64,000 nt of DNA from an uncultured Prevotellaceae bacterium (lineage in GTDB: Bacteria > Bacteroidota > Bacteroidia > Bacteroidales > Bacteroidaceae): contig ONCQ01000007.1 of the NCBI GenBank assembly GCA_900316355.1, positions 34,901-98,900 of the forward strand, in the 5' to 3' direction. The notes beneath the pieces are model-generated. The model was not told the DNA's origin. It saw only the letters and a list, made by a program, of their open reading frames with translations, and ran no database searches. Below are positions 54,743 through 60,067 of this stretch, one piece after another; positions within the stretch are counted from its first letter, which is position 1; each line of letters opens with the position of its first letter. The position numbers were made by a program, and so were the translations under genes.

Positions 54743-54756
54743 AAATACAAATCTAA

Positions 54757-54862
54757 AGCATCTTTTTGTCTCAAAAAGTGTCTAATGGGCTTCGAATAGT
54801 GCCTAATTAGCCTCGAAAAAGGCCTATTTAAACATAAAAACGCCTATTTAGGAACACTCAAA
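54757..54862. repeat. Decayed tandem repeat, about 21 bases, GTGCCTAATTAGCCTCGAAA type
   Basis: The word GTGTCTAAT (54778) / GTGCCTAATT (54799) / GGCCTATTT (54821) / CGCCTATTTAGG (54841) recurs at 20-21-base steps. Between uvrB and the tatA terminus. Confidence 0.65.
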
Positions 54863-54931
54863 TGGCTGAAAAGCAGTAAGGAAAACTTTAAATAGCCATG
54901 CCAGAAAACTTCAATGTTCTAACTTATTATC

Positions 54932-55120
54932 TTATAGCTCGGCCTCTTCTTTGATATCCTCAAGTGGCTCTGTCACTTCATGGACTCCTTTTTTGAACTC
55001 CTTCACTCCCTGGCCGAGGCCACGCATCATCTCCGGCAGCTTCTTGCCGCCGAAGAGCAGGAGGATGACACCAGCGATGATGATGATTTCGCTGGCACCG
55101 ATGAATAACGGGGTTATCAT
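54932..55120 (-). CDS. tatA: Twin-arginine translocase subunit TatA, last gene of the CXXX peptide operon
   Basis: 62 residues: a short periplasmic start, one membrane helix ([20 protein letters not shown]) and the amphipathic helix [15 protein letters not shown], the canonical TatA/TatE form. TatA makes the pore of the system that exports folded proteins with twin-arginine signals. Its start overlaps the previous stop (ATGA, four bases), so it is tightly tied to the operon, whose peptide precursor has such a signal. No tatC is visible in this window. Confidence 0.9.
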
Positions 55121-55401
55121 GCTTCGGTAGCTACTAAGGTAATCTCACATGTGTCGAAGTTGATTTCCCAGTTGCCGTGTGGATAGCTCTCCCATTGGTA
55201 CTTCTTGGCCTTCTCGTCCCACCACTGCTGGAACTTTGTACCAGTCTCACCCATGTCCTTGATGAGCTTCTCGTATAGGTCCGTGTTGTCGGCCGACAGA
55301 ATTTTGGCCAGTTCGTTCAAGCCGTTACGACGCTCAAAAAGTGCTTGAATTTCGGCGCGCTCTTCTGGCGTCACCTGTCCTACAATCTTTCTTATTTCCA
55401 T
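55117..55401 (-). CDS. CXXX repeat peptide modification system protein
   Basis: 94 residues. [39 protein letters not shown], then [21 protein letters not shown] small mixed helix-sheet protein of the kind named for association with CXXX-repeat peptides; the fold is unknown. Possibly a precursor-binding or carrier protein. It starts ten bases inside the end of the maturase gene and stops inside the tatA start. Confidence 0.7.
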
Positions 55402-56354
55402 TGTTTATAGTTATTAAAGGGATCTAAATAATCGATTTCTTCTATATCGTGAGTGTTGCTCATGCGGATGCCCTCTGTCTCCATCTTTTGCAACAAAGCT
55501 CGCGATGCATTGCGCTCCAGATGTGCGATGACGCACTGCTGATGGCCCGGAGTGTTAGCATCCAAGGTCAGACGGCTGTTCATCCAGATACAGCGACAGC
55601 AGTGGAAGGCATCGCAGTGGCGGCAGATGGGGGCATAGTCGAGGCGCAGCAACTGGCGGTTCTTGATGTTCAAGCCCGTTGCGAGGTCACCTACGCTCTG
55701 CCCCTCATCCTCATGATAGAAGGCAGGGCAGAGGTAAAAGCGCCCGTTCGGAGCCAGCGTCACGGTTGTATCACCAACTCCACAGTTATTCATCTGTGTG
55801 AGTAGCAAACGGTCCGTCAGCAAGTTCAACTGCACCAAACGCCCTTGCTTAAAGAAATCTATGAGATAATCAGATAGTTCATTGAGCAAGGAGCTGTAGC
55901 TGTCAATGTCTTCGTCGCGGAATGCCTCTGTGTCTGTAAGCACAACATTCAGCCTTGCCACTCTACCGAGTAGCTCCTTCACTTTCATCAAATACTCCCG
56001 TAATTCTATGCGGCTGGCATGGATGATGCAGGTTGCGCCGTCTATATCATCAGGCATGTGATGTGTCCAATCCTCTATCACCAGCACGTCAGCACCTTCT
56101 GCCTGTGTGGCAGGCTTGATTTTCGTATGGTCTATGCTCTCTATGACTTCCTCGTACTCTGCTGGCAGTTCGTATGTGGGATAGACAAACTGAATATTCA
56201 GGTTCTCCTTCATGGCGAACACGATACCACGCCGAAGGGTCTCCAACGGCATCAGCCCTTTATTCTTGCTCATCATGGATGGAACATGGCAGTACGGCAC
56301 GCTCGCTTTGTCCAATAAAATAATCAAGTATTGCAGCATATTCGTCAAGTTCAT
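55392..56354 (-). CDS. CXXX repeat peptide maturase
   Basis: 320 residues from the ATG at 56354 (MNLTNMLQYLIILLDKASVP); the longer frame would overlap the radical SAM gene. No CxxxCxxC site; instead a C-terminal cysteine cluster like a SPASM domain: Cys191, Cys209, Cys244, Cys247 (CRHCDAFHCCRC), Cys252-255 and Cys274. It could bind auxiliary iron-sulfur clusters while the enzyme encoded upstream provides the radical chemistry, making a two-component maturase. The start lies ten bases after that gene's stop. Confidence 0.75.
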   Translation of the reverse strand: MNLTNMLQYLIILLDKASVPYCHVPSMMSKNKGLMPLETLRRGIVFAMKENLNIQFVYPTYELPAEYEEVIESIDHTKIKPATQAEGADVLVIEDWTHHMPDDIDGATCIIHASRIELREYLMKVKELLGRVARLNVVLTDTEAFRDEDIDSYSSLLNELSDYLIDFFKQGRLVQLNLLTDRLLLTQMNNCGVGDTTVTLAPNGRFYLCPAFYHEDEGQSVGDLATGLNIKNRQLLRLDYAPICRHCDAFHCCRCIWMNSRLTLDANTPGHQQCVIAHLERNASRALLQKMETEGIRMSNTHDIEEIDYLDPFNNYKQWK

Positions 56355-56364
56355 TTCAGGCGTT

Positions 56365-57567
56365 TTATATATCACATGCCTTTCGGTTCGATTTACGCCG
56401 TTGTTCTTCGTATTCCTGCAGTTCCAACTTCCGAAATAGCTTGTTCCAATAATAGTTGTTGGCGCGTACGCGAGCCTTGTGCATCTTACAAATCGCTGTG
56501 CTTCGCTGATAGACCGTGTGCGTGTCTGCTGCATCGAAGTTCTCACCCTGACACCAAGCACAGCCGCTGGCCACTTCGCAGTTGATGCACTCCTCATTTG
56601 ACTGCGTACAGCGATCGAGTGTGAGGAATGGGCGCAGTTTGTTCTGGTCGATGCCATCGCGTATGTTGCCGATAATCCATGCTGGTTTGCTGCGTAGTGA
56701 GTACTGTGCGAAGCGGGTGCAAGGGTAGAACATCCCCGCCGCATCTACTGCCAGCATCATCCCGGCGCCGCACCAGTTTTGGTTGTCGCGCTCTCGGTCC
56801 ATAGGTTTGCCGATATGTTCCTGAAAGAATGAGCAGGCATGTTCCTCATACCATTTGCCATCAATGATAGCATCTGCCAACTCCGTCAGTTGTTCCTCGA
56901 ACAGCACATCGTCACCGTCCTTCCAAACATCCTCGAACACGCAGTTGATATTTACCTCCTTGATGCCGAGGCCATAGAGGTGCAGCACACTCTCACAGAT
57001 ATAGGGTATGTCGGCCGAGCTTATGGTTACTTTTGTTGATTCTTCAGGAAATTGGTATAGCCATAGCGGTATGTTCCTCACAACATCATTGTACGAACCG
57101 CGTTCTTCCTCTGGTTTCGGTTGTAATCCCTGCTCCATTTCGGGAGCTTTCCAGATGCGGTTGAGGTCATGCTTGCGCTGTGTACCGTCAATGGTGATGC
57201 CGATGCTCAGGTGCGAACGGTTCTTCTCAATGAATCGCTGCACCTTCTCCGTGTGGTAGTTGATGCCGTTAGTGGAAAACGAGAAGCGGTATGAGTTGAA
57301 CCAATGATGATTCCGTCTAAACATCTCTGTCTTCAAATAGTCGCAAATCTTATCTATCAGGTCAATCTCCAAGAACGGCTCGCCGCCAATGAAGTCCCAG
57401 ATGACGCTCTCTTCCCTGAACTCATCTTCCCTGTCCAGAATGTAATCAATGGCTCCCTTTGCCACCTCCCATGACATCCGCTCCTTCGTGTTCTTGCCCA
57501 CCAAGTAGCAGTATTTACACGCTAACTGGCAATCCTTCGTGACGATGAAGGTGATGGATTTTTCCAT
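56365..57567 (-). CDS. Radical SAM peptide maturase, CXXX-repeat target type
   Basis: 400 residues. The [4Fe-4S] site is CQLACKYC (Cys13, Cys17, Cys20), followed by the GGEPFLE turn and a SPASM-type C-terminus with EECINCEVASGCAWC and CKMHKARV. These enzymes use a 5'-deoxyadenosyl radical to modify peptides; here the target should be the cysteine repeats encoded 12 bases upstream. The nature of the change (for example a thioether bond to the alpha-carbon or other cross-link) is unknown. Works presumably with the maturase at 55392. Confidence 0.85.
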   Translation of the reverse strand: MEKSITFIVTKDCQLACKYCYLVGKNTKERMSWEVAKGAIDYILDREDEFREESVIWDFIGGEPFLEIDLIDKICDYLKTEMFRRNHHWFNSYRFSFSTNGINYHTEKVQRFIEKNRSHLSIGITIDGTQRKHDLNRIWKAPEMEQGLQPKPEEERGSYNDVVRNIPLWLYQFPEESTKVTISSADIPYICESVLHLYGLGIKEVNINCVFEDVWKDGDDVLFEEQLTELADAIIDGKWYEEHACSFFQEHIGKPMDRERDNQNWCGAGMMLAVDAAGMFYPCTRFAQYSLRSKPAWIIGNIRDGIDQNKLRPFLTLDRCTQSNEECINCEVASGCAWCQGENFDAADTHTVYQRSTAICKMHKARVRANNYYWNKLFRKLELQEYEEQRRKSNRKACDI

Positions 57568-57579
57568 AAATCAAGTGGT

Positions 57580-58167
57580 TTATGCCTTTCTCTTTACAAG
57601 AGTCTTACAACTGCTGTTGCAACCTGTAATGCATGTACCCTTGCATGAGGAATAACAATTACTTCCACATGTGCCTTTGCATGTTCCACTACAATTGTTG
57701 CCACAGCTTCCACTACACCCGCTACATCCCCCAGTACAAGAACTGCTACATCCCCCTGAGCAGCCGCTGTAACAGCCGTTCTCACAATCATAGCCACAAC
57801 TCTCAGAGCATCCATCTGAACAAGCCTCATCGCAATTATATATGCACGAATTAGTACAACCACTCTCGCAGCTGTCTCCACACCCTTCGGAACACCCCTC
57901 TTTACATGAACTAGAGCAATCATATTGACAAGCCATGTTACAACTATCAGAGCAGCTGCTTGAGCAGTCGTCACAGCTGGAAGTGCCTTTTGGCGCATCA
58001 CTTCCACCCTCTTCATCTTTTTTTAGTAAATCTTCCTCTATATGCTCATCCTTTTCACATGAGGTGAGAAATGAAGGTAATAAGTTTGCTGCCAGGAATG
58101 GCACTACTACACTTGTCGTTTTTTTGAAAAAAGCTCTACGTGAGAGCAGGTCATCATTATTCTTCAT
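57580..58167 (-). CDS. Cysteine-rich CXXX repeat peptide precursor with twin-arginine signal and lipobox
   Basis: 195 residues. Residues 1-36 form a Tat signal: SRRAFFKK (consensus S/T-RR-x-F-L-K), a hydrophobic run and a lipobox LTSC with Cys37, so the product may become a lipid-anchored folded protein. A linker rich in Asp, Glu and Lys follows. From Cys65 to Cys187 there are 32 cysteines, 29 of the intervals of exactly four residues and two of three (CDDC, CSGC). The residues between are mostly Ser, Gly, Asn and Asp. The end is TLVKRKA, without cysteine. Such repeats in this family are candidate substrates of radical SAM enzymes. Metallothionein-like metal binding is an alternative. Confidence 0.85.
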   Translation of the reverse strand: MKNNDDLLSRRAFFKKTTSVVVPFLAANLLPSFLTSCEKDEHIEEDLLKKDEEGGSDAPKGTSSCDDCSSSCSDSCNMACQYDCSSSCKEGCSEGCGDSCESGCTNSCIYNCDEACSDGCSESCGYDCENGCYSGCSGGCSSSCTGGCSGCSGSCGNNCSGTCKGTCGSNCYSSCKGTCITGCNSSCKTLVKRKA

Positions 58168-58178
58168 ATTTCTGCTTT

Positions 58179-59267
58179 TTATTTGCCTGTGTAAACACCC
58201 CGAACGGAATGGCCGTCATAATAGTTGTGACCATTTGTTCCTATCTGATAGGAATCATTCGTAAACACCAATGAGACAGGCTCCAATTTCCCCACGGTAT
58301 TGTTACTGCCTGTCCAATAATAGCCTGTATTTCCATAAAATCCCCATGAATCAGTGGAAGTGCTATACCTGTAACCAGAGGCTGGCAGAAAGATGGATGA
58401 ACCTGTAATTTTAGAAGTTAAGAGACAGCCTGCCTTCCCATTTGATGTGGTCCATTTAAAACTACAATTATTAACTAACTCCCGCATTTCAGAACTTGTT
58501 GGTAAGCGCCAGCCTTGGCCCAAATGATGGGTAGCCACATCATAGGATGTTCCACATATGCCCGATGATACATTTAGCAGGGCCATAAACGAGGAATTAT
58601 CTTTTTGACGATGGCTGTAGGCCGTGTAATCTGATTTGTTCTCAATCTCACCCCAGGCGATATACAAGCCGTCGTCTGAGACCTTTTCGGCACCCACATT
58701 TCTTGCTCCCCATTTCACACTAAGTCCAAGATCCACATAAGGTTCTTCAGTTACTGAAATATCTTCTTCCACCTCAGTAGGCTGAACATAGACGGCAGTT
58801 ACCTCTGCAATACCAGAATCAATGAGTTGCCTGTTCTTATTATAGAACTTGACTAATACCGTGTAACCATCTTTCGCCTCAATGGGTGTATTGGTAGAAC
58901 CTATTAGAGTAGAGCCGTGATAAGTCTTCACTGTCAAGGTACTTGTATTAGTAATCATATAATTTATGTCTGATGCCAGAACGCCGTTGAGATATTTCTC
59001 CAAGCGACACCCTTCCATCTCTGTGGCACCATAAGCAAGAAGAACCTTCACACGATAACCAATTAATACAGGCTCCTGAGGAGGGTTGTTGTTATCATCA
59101 GATGTATTTTTATCTTCAGGTGCTGCAATAGGCTCTTCGTTTATGGGCTCTTCTATTTCCTCATCTTTTCCGCATGAACTCATGAAGCTACCGGCAAAAC
59201 AAACTATGGCAAGTAGGCAAAGTGCAATACGCACTTTCCTCAAAAAATAAATGTTGTTTTTCATCAT
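58179..59267 (-). CDS. FISUMP-domain lipoprotein in the CXXX peptide operon
   Basis: 362 residues. Lipobox MSSC (Cys32) and a Pro/Asn/Asp-rich linker. The C-terminal half is FISUMP (Fibrobacter major paralogous domain; related to DUF1566): YVDLGLSVKWGARNVGAEKV, GLYIAWGEIENKSDY, GQGWRLPTSSEMRELV, and GYYWTGSN. Surface-exposed and Trp/Gly-rich; may bind polymer or product. Located 11 bases before the precursor gene on the same strand, so it probably sees the precursor outside. Confidence 0.78.
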   Translation of the reverse strand: MMKNNIYFLRKVRIALCLLAIVCFAGSFMSSCGKDEEIEEPINEEPIAAPEDKNTSDDNNNPPQEPVLIGYRVKVLLAYGATEMEGCRLEKYLNGVLASDINYMITNTSTLTVKTYHGSTLIGSTNTPIEAKDGYTVLVKFYNKNRQLIDSGIAEVTAVYVQPTEVEEDISVTEEPYVDLGLSVKWGARNVGAEKVSDDGLYIAWGEIENKSDYTAYSHRQKDNSSFMALLNVSSGICGTSYDVATHHLGQGWRLPTSSEMRELVNNCSFKWTTSNGKAGCLLTSKITGSSIFLPASGYRYSTSTDSWGFYGNTGYYWTGSNNTVGKLEPVSLVFTNDSYQIGTNGHNYYDGHSVRGVYTGK

Positions 59268-59284
59268 TGTTGCCCCTTTTTATG

Positions 59285-60067
59285 CTAAAATTCAAAACCA
59301 ACTCTGAGGGCTACTGCATTGCAATTCACCTTCGTTTTGGTATAACTGACTTTACCCGTATCATAGTTAATCTTCATATCTTTCACACCTTCCATCTTCT
59401 GTAGCTGATAGCCAAGACCTATGTATGCGGCAAATGATTTCCGGATACCTATACGGATGCCGACATAGGGATTAAAGTAGAGACCATCCACTTTACCTGC
59501 AGCATATCCTATACGCATATCTACAAATGGTGTTATTGGCTTTTTAAGCGGTGTGAAGCGTGCGGCGAAGAACATAGGGACGCTCAAATCAATGTAGCCT
59601 CCACGATATTCGCCCCACATGTAGAGCCCAAGACCGGCACCAACAAAGATATAGGGGTTAATTTGATAACCGTGTACGGTGCTGAAACCAAAATTCAGGA
59701 AGTTATTGAAGTCACCTGTGCAGTAGCCATAGTCCAATCCTGCGAAGCCCACATACCCCCGATCGATTACAGCCTTTTTCATTTCTTCACGTTGTGCCTC
59801 TCTGAGTTGTTCTGTGAAACTTTTCTTTGGTGCCTCCACGACTTCTTCTTTTGAAATACGTTCGACGTCTCCCATTTGATACACAAAGAGGTTACCGTCT
59901 GAGGTCTTGATTTTCAGAGATTCATTAGGCGTTTGCTCAGTGATGATTCCCCGGATGACGCTGCCGTTTTTCAAATATACGACATCAATCATTGATGTTT
60001 GTGCCATTGTCTGCATTACGGCAACTACAGCAAAAGCAAAAAGAATAAGTATGCGTTTCATCTTCAT
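59285..60067 (-). CDS. Outer-membrane barrel protein with N-terminal Sm-like domain, first gene of the CXXX peptide operon
   Basis: 260 residues. Signal peptide MKMKRILILFAFAVVAVMQT. Residues 20-75 make an SH3/Sm-like domain (DVVYLKNGSVIRGIITEQTP; LFVYQMGDVERISKEE). The second half is an amphipathic barrel: GYVGFAGLDYGYCTGDFNN, YQINPYIFVGAGLGLYMWGE, PITPFVDMRIGYAAG, YFNPYVGIRIGIRKSFAAYI, ending ALRVGFEF with a terminal Phe. It could be an exporter or receptor for the operon. The leader RNA ends 67 bases upstream. Confidence 0.75.
   Translation of the reverse strand: MKMKRILILFAFAVVAVMQTMAQTSMIDVVYLKNGSVIRGIITEQTPNESLKIKTSDGNLFVYQMGDVERISKEEVVEAPKKSFTEQLREAQREEMKKAVIDRGYVGFAGLDYGYCTGDFNNFLNFGFSTVHGYQINPYIFVGAGLGLYMWGEYRGGYIDLSVPMFFAARFTPLKKPITPFVDMRIGYAAGKVDGLYFNPYVGIRIGIRKSFAAYIGLGYQLQKMEGVKDMKINYDTGKVSYTKTKVNCNAVALRVGFEF

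Follow-up and report, generated by a model that had tools for sequence, protein, structure and literature searches.

A CXXX-repeat, RiPP-like operon with predicted twin-arginine export in an uncultured Prevotellaceae bacterium

A stretch of 64,000 nucleotides from an uncultured Prevotellaceae bacterium (GenBank assembly GCA_900316355.1, contig ONCQ01000007.1, positions 34,901 to 98,900), hereafter the window, carries a minus-strand operon for a cysteine-rich precursor, its putative modifying enzymes and TatA of the twin-arginine translocation (Tat) pathway. The operon very probably represents a CXXX-repeat system, akin to those for ribosomally synthesized and post-translationally modified peptides (RiPPs), that has been adapted to export by Tat. 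A Tat-type signal is present on the precursor itself, the twin-arginine (RR) motif recurs in 127 of 134 plausible precursors of related loci, and most related operons include tatA and tatC. The CXXX system is already named in NCBIfam; a coupling to Tat export would be the new element.

The N terminus of the precursor, MKNNDDLLSRRAFFKKTTSVVVPFLAANLLPSFLTSCEKDE, contains an RR motif followed by a hydrophobic stretch and a lipobox, and had been overlooked in an earlier, sequence-only reading of the operon. The layout is that of a Tat-substrate signal: SRRAFFKK is followed by the hydrophobic TTSVVVPFLAANLLPSFL. In an alignment with the precursors of 11 relatives of the same order, R10, R11, F13 and K15 are invariant, F13 being, by alignment position, the second F after the arginines. 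LTSC is presumably the lipobox. Further downstream, the cysteine ladder holds the 32 cysteines previously counted, the 33rd being Cys37 of the lipobox; of the 31 gaps in the ladder, 29 measure exactly four residues and the other two measure three. A cysteine at every fourth residue, next to the enzyme genes, is what characterizes a precursor of the CXXX system. The score of the window precursor against TIGR04117 (29.2 bits, E 7.4e-7) lies below the 50-bit cut-off, and membership of that family is not claimed. TIGR04117 matches 12 of 12 precursors, and TIGR02811, a TAT-target model, three of 12 (best E 0.0023). The operon comprises the following features (family scores with the cut-off after the slash):

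54932 to 55120, minus strand: tatA, 62 amino acids; TIGR01411, 66.7/53.9 bits; closest to operon-type TatA
55117 to 55401, minus strand: helper, 94 amino acids; TIGR04116, 94.5/50 bits; predicted beta-alpha-alpha-beta-beta
55392 to 56354, minus strand: maturase with a radical S-adenosylmethionine (SAM)/SPASM-like fold, SPASM-like cysteines kept, no CX3CX2C; TIGR04119, 235.4/150 bits
56365 to 57567, minus strand: radical SAM/SPASM peptide maturase with CQLACKYC; TIGR04115, 627.5/350 bits
57580 to 58167, minus strand: precursor, 195 amino acids, 33 cysteines (from the translation): Tat-type signal, lipobox, acidic linker, CXXX repeats
58123 to 58143, minus strand: twin-arginine motif SRRAFFK, precursor residues 9 to 15 (sequence and alignment)
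58057 to 58068, minus strand: putative lipobox LTSC, precursor residues 34 to 37, followed by EKDEHIEED (sequence)
57607 to 57975, minus strand: CXXX repeat region, precursor residues 65 to 187, 32 cysteines (sequence)
58179 to 59267, minus strand: FISUMP lipoprotein, 362 amino acids, without RR motif; TIGR02145, 19.5/41.65 bits, and PF09603, 24.4/33.9 bits; homologous to FISUMP domains between the CXXX stretches of loci L047 and L091
59285 to 60067, minus strand: predicted outer-membrane barrel, 260 amino acids; PF13505, 19.4/28.7 bits

The sequence-only reading had described seven close-set minus-strand genes, and this description holds from 54932 to 60067, with spacings (5' to 3') of 17, 11, 12, 10, -10 and -4 bases. 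The 10-base spacing uses the ATG at 56354 as the maturase start; other computations began one codon later. The names given to the radical SAM enzyme, the helper and TatA are borne out by scores above the NCBIfam cut-offs, and the predicted radical-SAM CXXX class of RiPPs by TIGR04115, TIGR04119 and TIGR04116. Because the radical SAM enzyme, the maturase and the helper all exceed curated cut-offs, the chemistry genes are those of the CXXX-repeat system known in silico. The "maturase with a cysteine cluster" keeps its family and its SPASM-like cysteines; it lacks the CX3CX2C of an active radical SAM enzyme. For FISUMP and barrel, the names stand on scores below the cut-offs. A promoter and terminator scan returned fewer sites than in shuffled sequences. 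The gap between uvrB and tatA (54743 to 54931) is AT-rich, with repeated GCCTATTT-like words, and is too short for a tatC.

Twin-arginine signals and tat genes in related operons

Genome contigs were scanned with an alignment of the radical SAM enzyme. Of the 394 stretches encoding a relative, the best 80 were kept as the main sample, which for that reason covers the near side; 65 of these 80 loci extend at least 3.5 kb downstream of the enzyme gene and were used for downstream-gene counts. Two smaller samples were added. The order sample consists of the 12 of 393 genomes above the cut-off for the radical SAM enzyme. The family sample derives from 23 of 201 genomes above the maturase cut-off, with 25 places, 20 of them fetched; 12 of these 20 lie on contigs already within the 80-locus sample. 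As controls, 18 loci of other radical SAM enzymes were taken from the order search, with about 8 kb per side where the contig allowed; one of them is the second match of the window's own genome. Three records titled Clostridium, Clostridia or Lachnospiraceae (L061, L081, L094) hold Bacteroidales-type operons and are probably mis-binned or mislabelled assemblies.

On the operon strand of the 80 loci, 137 cysteine-ladder reading frames were found. Three, all from L104, were dropped as artefacts of another stretch there, leaving the 134 plausible precursors. The RR motif was recognized in 126 of them by the strict expression and, in addition, in L093 (TRRKFFS). The seven others are heterogeneous: those of L059 and L099 are cut by the contig end, that of L077 represents the downstream part of a FISUMP fusion whose frame is interrupted, those of L051 and L102 have RR codons just upstream in another frame, and those of L050 (at 79) and L104 (at 6949) go without. 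Within the first 80 residues, the strict motif occurs in 121 of the 2377 operon-strand open reading frames of at least 60 amino acids, all 121 with at least three CXXXC, against one of 2534 reading frames in the opposite-strand control. One operon (L057, 2760 to 8215) holds eight different RR-type CXXX precursors between its enzyme genes, a paralogue expansion. The window's own genome was searched for further Tat cargoes with an RRxFFK DNA pattern, which hit the precursor and one place without a signal reading frame; as the reversed control pattern matched six times, this search is uninformative.

The precursors are up to 346 amino acids long. A lipobox-like cysteine is present in 47 of 126; a narrower rule gives 37 with a lipobox, 61 with an AxA-like site and 28 with neither. 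Surface lipoproteins of Bacteroidota carry an acidic export signal directly after the lipobox cysteine. Acidic residues stand there in the window precursor (CEKDE), and 29 of the 47 lipobox-type precursors have at least three among the next ten residues, a count without a control set. Judging from its lipobox, the window product would very probably be lipid-anchored; the chances that it is also exposed at the surface are about even.

The usual order in the relatives is one or more precursors, radical SAM enzyme, maturase, helper, tatA and tatC, with further precursors interspersed in some loci. In the 65 loci, maturase and helper are always present, tatA is found in 53 and tatA together with tatC in 51; all five genes occur in 58 of the 80 loci when no downstream length is required. 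The median spacing is 2 bases between helper and tatA and -20 bases between tatA and tatC (n = 57). Both tat genes are present in eight of 12 loci of the order sample, tatA alone in the window and neither in three; in the family sample, tatA was found at 17 of 20 places and tatC at 16. None of the 18 control loci contains tatA or tatC, nor do they contain an RR-type CXXX precursor. The sequence-only reading had considered that a tatA conserved without any link to the precursor would speak against it; the outcome does not go against Tat export. One operon appears rearranged in tandem (L106, 10074 to 13513), containing an additional maturase piece, helper and tatA as well as another precursor ahead of tatC.

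TatC was searched in 50 of the 80 genomes and turned up within the operon in 35. The operon tatC is the only one found in 12 of the 35, including Leyella stercorea DSM 18206, "only" being limited to what was found since many are metagenome assemblies of unstated completeness; the other 23 have a further tatC elsewhere. The check for tatC proposed for the window's genome yielded one, on contig C56, adjoining another tatA. In the order sample, TatC is present in each of the 12 CXXX genomes, versus 327 of 393 overall, and two TatC matches are present in five of the 12, versus two or more in 17 of 381 others (counted by hand). Nearly all these genomes thus have a Tat system, which in many cases is either dedicated to the CXXX operon or shared with it. 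In a tree with few columns, the window TatA is nearest to the operon TatA of L047 (79% identity) and L048, not to that of contig C56. An unrooted TatC tree has one branch (92/93) parting 65 operon from 29 standalone proteins, which the bootstrap leaves unsettled. With 30 of the 65 operon proteins and 29 wider-phylum TatC as outgroup, 22 of the 30 form a clade (100/99), 26 of the 29 standalone proteins form another (98/95), and the pairing of the two is weak (82/29). Support for the main operon clade is solid, without extending to a single origin of operon TatC.

Several observations weigh against the Tat reading. Its basis is the motif and gene linkage, and none of the NCBIfam and Pfam matches listed for the window precursor is a Tat-signal model. 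The window operon has no tatC, 189 bases separating tatA from the end of uvrB. Nearby tatA is absent from 12 of the 65 loci and nearby tatC from 14; 13 of these 14 have an RR precursor all the same, the precursor of the remaining one (L059) being cut by the contig end. Among the 15 genomes without an operon tatC (one of them, L065, on a contig ending about 1 kb past the helper), 13 have one elsewhere, and none was found in L059 and L109. The outgroup-rooted tree needs three changes of the operon label, and the idea of a single operon clade was dropped, a single change occurring in 0% of 200 bootstrap trees. Finally, distances between the radical SAM enzymes correlate with those of operon TatC (r 0.36) and of TatC elsewhere in the genome (r 0.30) with no clear difference (18 genomes).

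The lone tatA could signify a decaying copy: tatC would have been lost, tatA would be a leftover, and the precursor would either leave through the genome's ordinary TatA-TatC or stay unexported. That two loci of the same genus differ, L204 lacking tat genes and L205 having both, would fit such losses. However, none of the seven frames of the window operon is interrupted, the genes lie close together, the signal of the precursor is undamaged, and the two nearest relatives, L047 and L048, likewise have tatA without tatC while their other operon genes are present. Decay is a serious possibility, yet an unlikely one.

Modifying enzymes and FISUMP domains

The radical SAM enzyme keeps CQLACKYC, and its relative by sequence in the PDB is 5wgg (E 2.6e-29, with a profile of 11 relatives). 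Against the model of the ranthipeptide maturase PapB it scores 183 bits, below the cut-off of 340. In the maturase, seven cysteines in SPASM-like spacing and C21 are invariant among 56 sequences, with no CX3CX2C. Its AlphaFold2 model (mean predicted local distance difference test, pLDDT, 93.0; one residue short at the start) has the thioether-forming 5why as best fold match (E 3.6e-11, template modeling score 0.65 by query), and the protein looks like a partner without SAM cluster. The model of the helper is equally well defined (pLDDT 94.2); no fold match with an E value of 0.001 or less was found for it in the PDB.

The 2328 CXXXC units of 126 precursors have glycine at X2 in 36%, mostly S, K or T at X1, and S, G or T at X3. 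PapA-type ranthipeptides have a CX3D acceptor pattern. A fixed acidic acceptor is missing from the 2328 units, so that the CX3D/E pattern of the PapA type is not reproduced. For this reason, cross-links are deduced from enzyme kinship, and thioether bridges within the repeats are the probable, though by no means assured, product. The sactipeptide and ranthipeptide enzymes 5wgg, 5why and PapB are relatives of the window enzymes in sequence and fold; the window system differs from them in combining a radical SAM enzyme with a radical-SAM-like partner and a helper, and in having no fixed Asp/Glu acceptor.

Alternatively, the ladder might be a metal- or cluster-binding protein that the radical SAM pair modifies lightly or helps to load, Tat being needed because metal insertion would take place in the cytosol. 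In favour of this, many Tat substrates are cofactor proteins, the cysteines are regularly spaced, and SPASM-like cysteines are kept in both the maturase and the radical SAM enzyme. But the best fold and sequence relatives of the enzymes are the thioether-forming 5wgg and 5why, and the radical SAM enzyme reaches the 183 bits with PapB, even if this is under the cut-off. This alternative seems rather improbable.

The sequence-only reading had also linked the peptide to surface proteins, which holds for FISUMP, by way of fusions, and is not borne out for the barrel. In L047, L048, L055 and L091, a single frame encodes a Tat-type signal followed by two stretches of CXXX repeats on either side of a central segment; in L077, an interrupted frame contains the first portion of such a protein. 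Pairwise comparison with the window's FISUMP domain, made for two of these proteins, shows the central segment to be homologous to it (L047, E 4e-26; L091, E 2e-20). With Pfam, the segment gives weak matches below the cut-off in L047 and L077 and none in L048, L055 and L091. FISUMP-like proteins accompany 11 of the 80 loci by the window profile, or 16 by a looser BLAST family, versus one of 18 controls, which is not decisive. The FISUMP link rests on the fusions, not on proximity, and display or adhesion through this domain is a guess. The barrel was rejected as part of the system, since a single-sequence profile found a relative in only one of 80 loci; it is probably cotranscribed with the operon. 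Bacterial SH3-domain proteins also recur by the operons (L058, 6749 to 7612; L079, 6189 to 7487; two BLAST families in seven and five of 80 loci), and the L079 protein has a barrel-like match slightly below the cut-off.

Exchange of the export module

A variant without the RR motif has other export genes. L045, a Bacteroidales locus above the cut-off for the radical SAM enzyme, encodes a cysteine-rich precursor of 70 amino acids without RR, a fusion of radical SAM enzyme and maturase, and the helper; export is represented by an ATP-binding cassette (ABC) exporter (PF00664, PF00005) and a subtilase (PF00082), with no tat. On the Anaerococcus prevotii plasmid pAPRE01 (NC_013164), the same two enzymes are fused (487 and 279 bits) and accompanied by a 56-residue peptide and an ABC transporter; the CXXX genes there (L160, 2650 to 9920) adjoin a class III lanthipeptide cluster. 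Both share their enzymes with the window system, though fused in one chain, and differ from it in the short, RR-less precursor and the adjoining ABC transporter; the stretches seen contain no tat. In two genomes of another Bacteroidota class (L162, L163), maturase and helper are fused, and the precursor has DRRRFI and a lipobox-like cysteine; no tat genes lie in the stretches fetched. The two kinds of fusion suggest that radical SAM enzyme, maturase and helper act as one complex. A role of the helper as Tat-signal chaperone is not favoured: the variant without tat genes has the helper too, which makes a function specific to Tat less likely.

The exchange also bears on whether tatA and tatC might stand in these operons for their own sake, as a Tat locus that hosts RiPP genes, with the precursor leaving another way. 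In the 12 genomes whose only TatC found is that of the operon, this TatC would serve any other Tat cargo. Against this, the precursors themselves carry the RR motif, 23 of the 35 genomes have another tatC elsewhere, and the RR-less variant is also the one without tat, which leaves this explanation very little probability. An ordinary secreted bacteriocin, its leader cut by a peptidase-containing ABC transporter as reported for other Bacteroidales RiPP clusters (PMC10352776), is hardly credible for the window, even though L045 and the Anaerococcus plasmid have ABC transporters adjoining the enzymes, given seven operon genes without an ABC exporter, a precursor with RR signal and lipobox, and precursors as long as 346 residues.

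Export of the finished protein by Tat is the highly probable reading of signals, gene linkage and export swap. The same three lines (RR signals of the precursors, TatA-TatC in most related operons, and the ABC exporter and protease replacing them in the RR-less variant) favour the earlier proposal that the peptide is modified in the cytoplasm and exported by Tat.

Proposed pathway and known systems

In the proposed pathway, the radical SAM enzyme, its partner without SAM cluster and the helper would act in the cytosol on the cysteine ladder, with thioether cross-links as the most likely modification; we infer this location from the enzymes, on which no signal was noted. The stiffened product, which carries a folded FISUMP domain as a fusion partner in some relatives, would then leave by Tat rather than by Sec or an ABC exporter, steered by the precursor's own twin-arginine signal. 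This signal would be removed by signal peptidase II in the lipobox type, as in the window, or by signal peptidase I in the AxA type, and the lipobox-type product would become a lipoprotein anchored in the membrane and perhaps exposed at the surface. Operons of the usual layout would supply their own TatA and TatC; the window operon, with tatA alone, would borrow the genome's other TatC. A more tentative extension, to which we give rather less than an even chance, is that the Tat signal doubles as the RiPP leader: it would be read and hidden by the complex of radical SAM enzyme, maturase and helper until the ladder is finished, and then be passed to a TatA-TatC devoted to this cargo, giving a surface-displayed, cross-linked cysteine rod, possibly with FISUMP in mid-rod.

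Tat is known to export lipoproteins and cofactor enzymes, and the RR motif, TatA and TatC are common to those cases and to the present one. What differs is the predicted cargo, a radical-SAM-modified repeat protein, and a translocase encoded in its operon in most related loci. With the NCBIfam CXXX-repeat system (TIGR04114 to TIGR04119), the window shares the radical SAM enzyme, maturase and helper families above their cut-offs and the cysteine at every fourth residue; the model names seen do not refer to Tat, and the window adds a Tat-type signal and a Tat gene in the operon. The radical-SAM RiPP clusters of PMC10352776 come from the same order, Bacteroidales, and have GG leaders and, instead of Tat, peptidase-containing ABC transporters for export; the terms tat, twin and cxxx are absent from its main text. 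In the excerpted text of PMC9927498, Tat is named only among differentially expressed genes. Within the open-licence PMC literature, a scope outside which most subscription papers lie, nothing was returned for "CXXX repeat" or "TIGR04115", and titles and abstract beginnings gave no link between Tat and RiPP export.

Ribosomal peptides of this kind are usually viewed as small and exported by ABC transporters. If radical-SAM modification is indeed coupled to Tat across gut Bacteroidales, a different logic of RiPP export would apply there, the order would have a new kind of exported protein, and Tat would have a dedicated cargo wherever the operon holds the only TatC found. Should the Tat signal also be the leader, export as a finished, folded protein through a translocase dedicated to its cargo would be the defining trait of such a RiPP class. 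The orphan NCBIfam models would become a testable pathway with built-in controls, as variants with RR motif and tat genes can be set against those with an ABC exporter.

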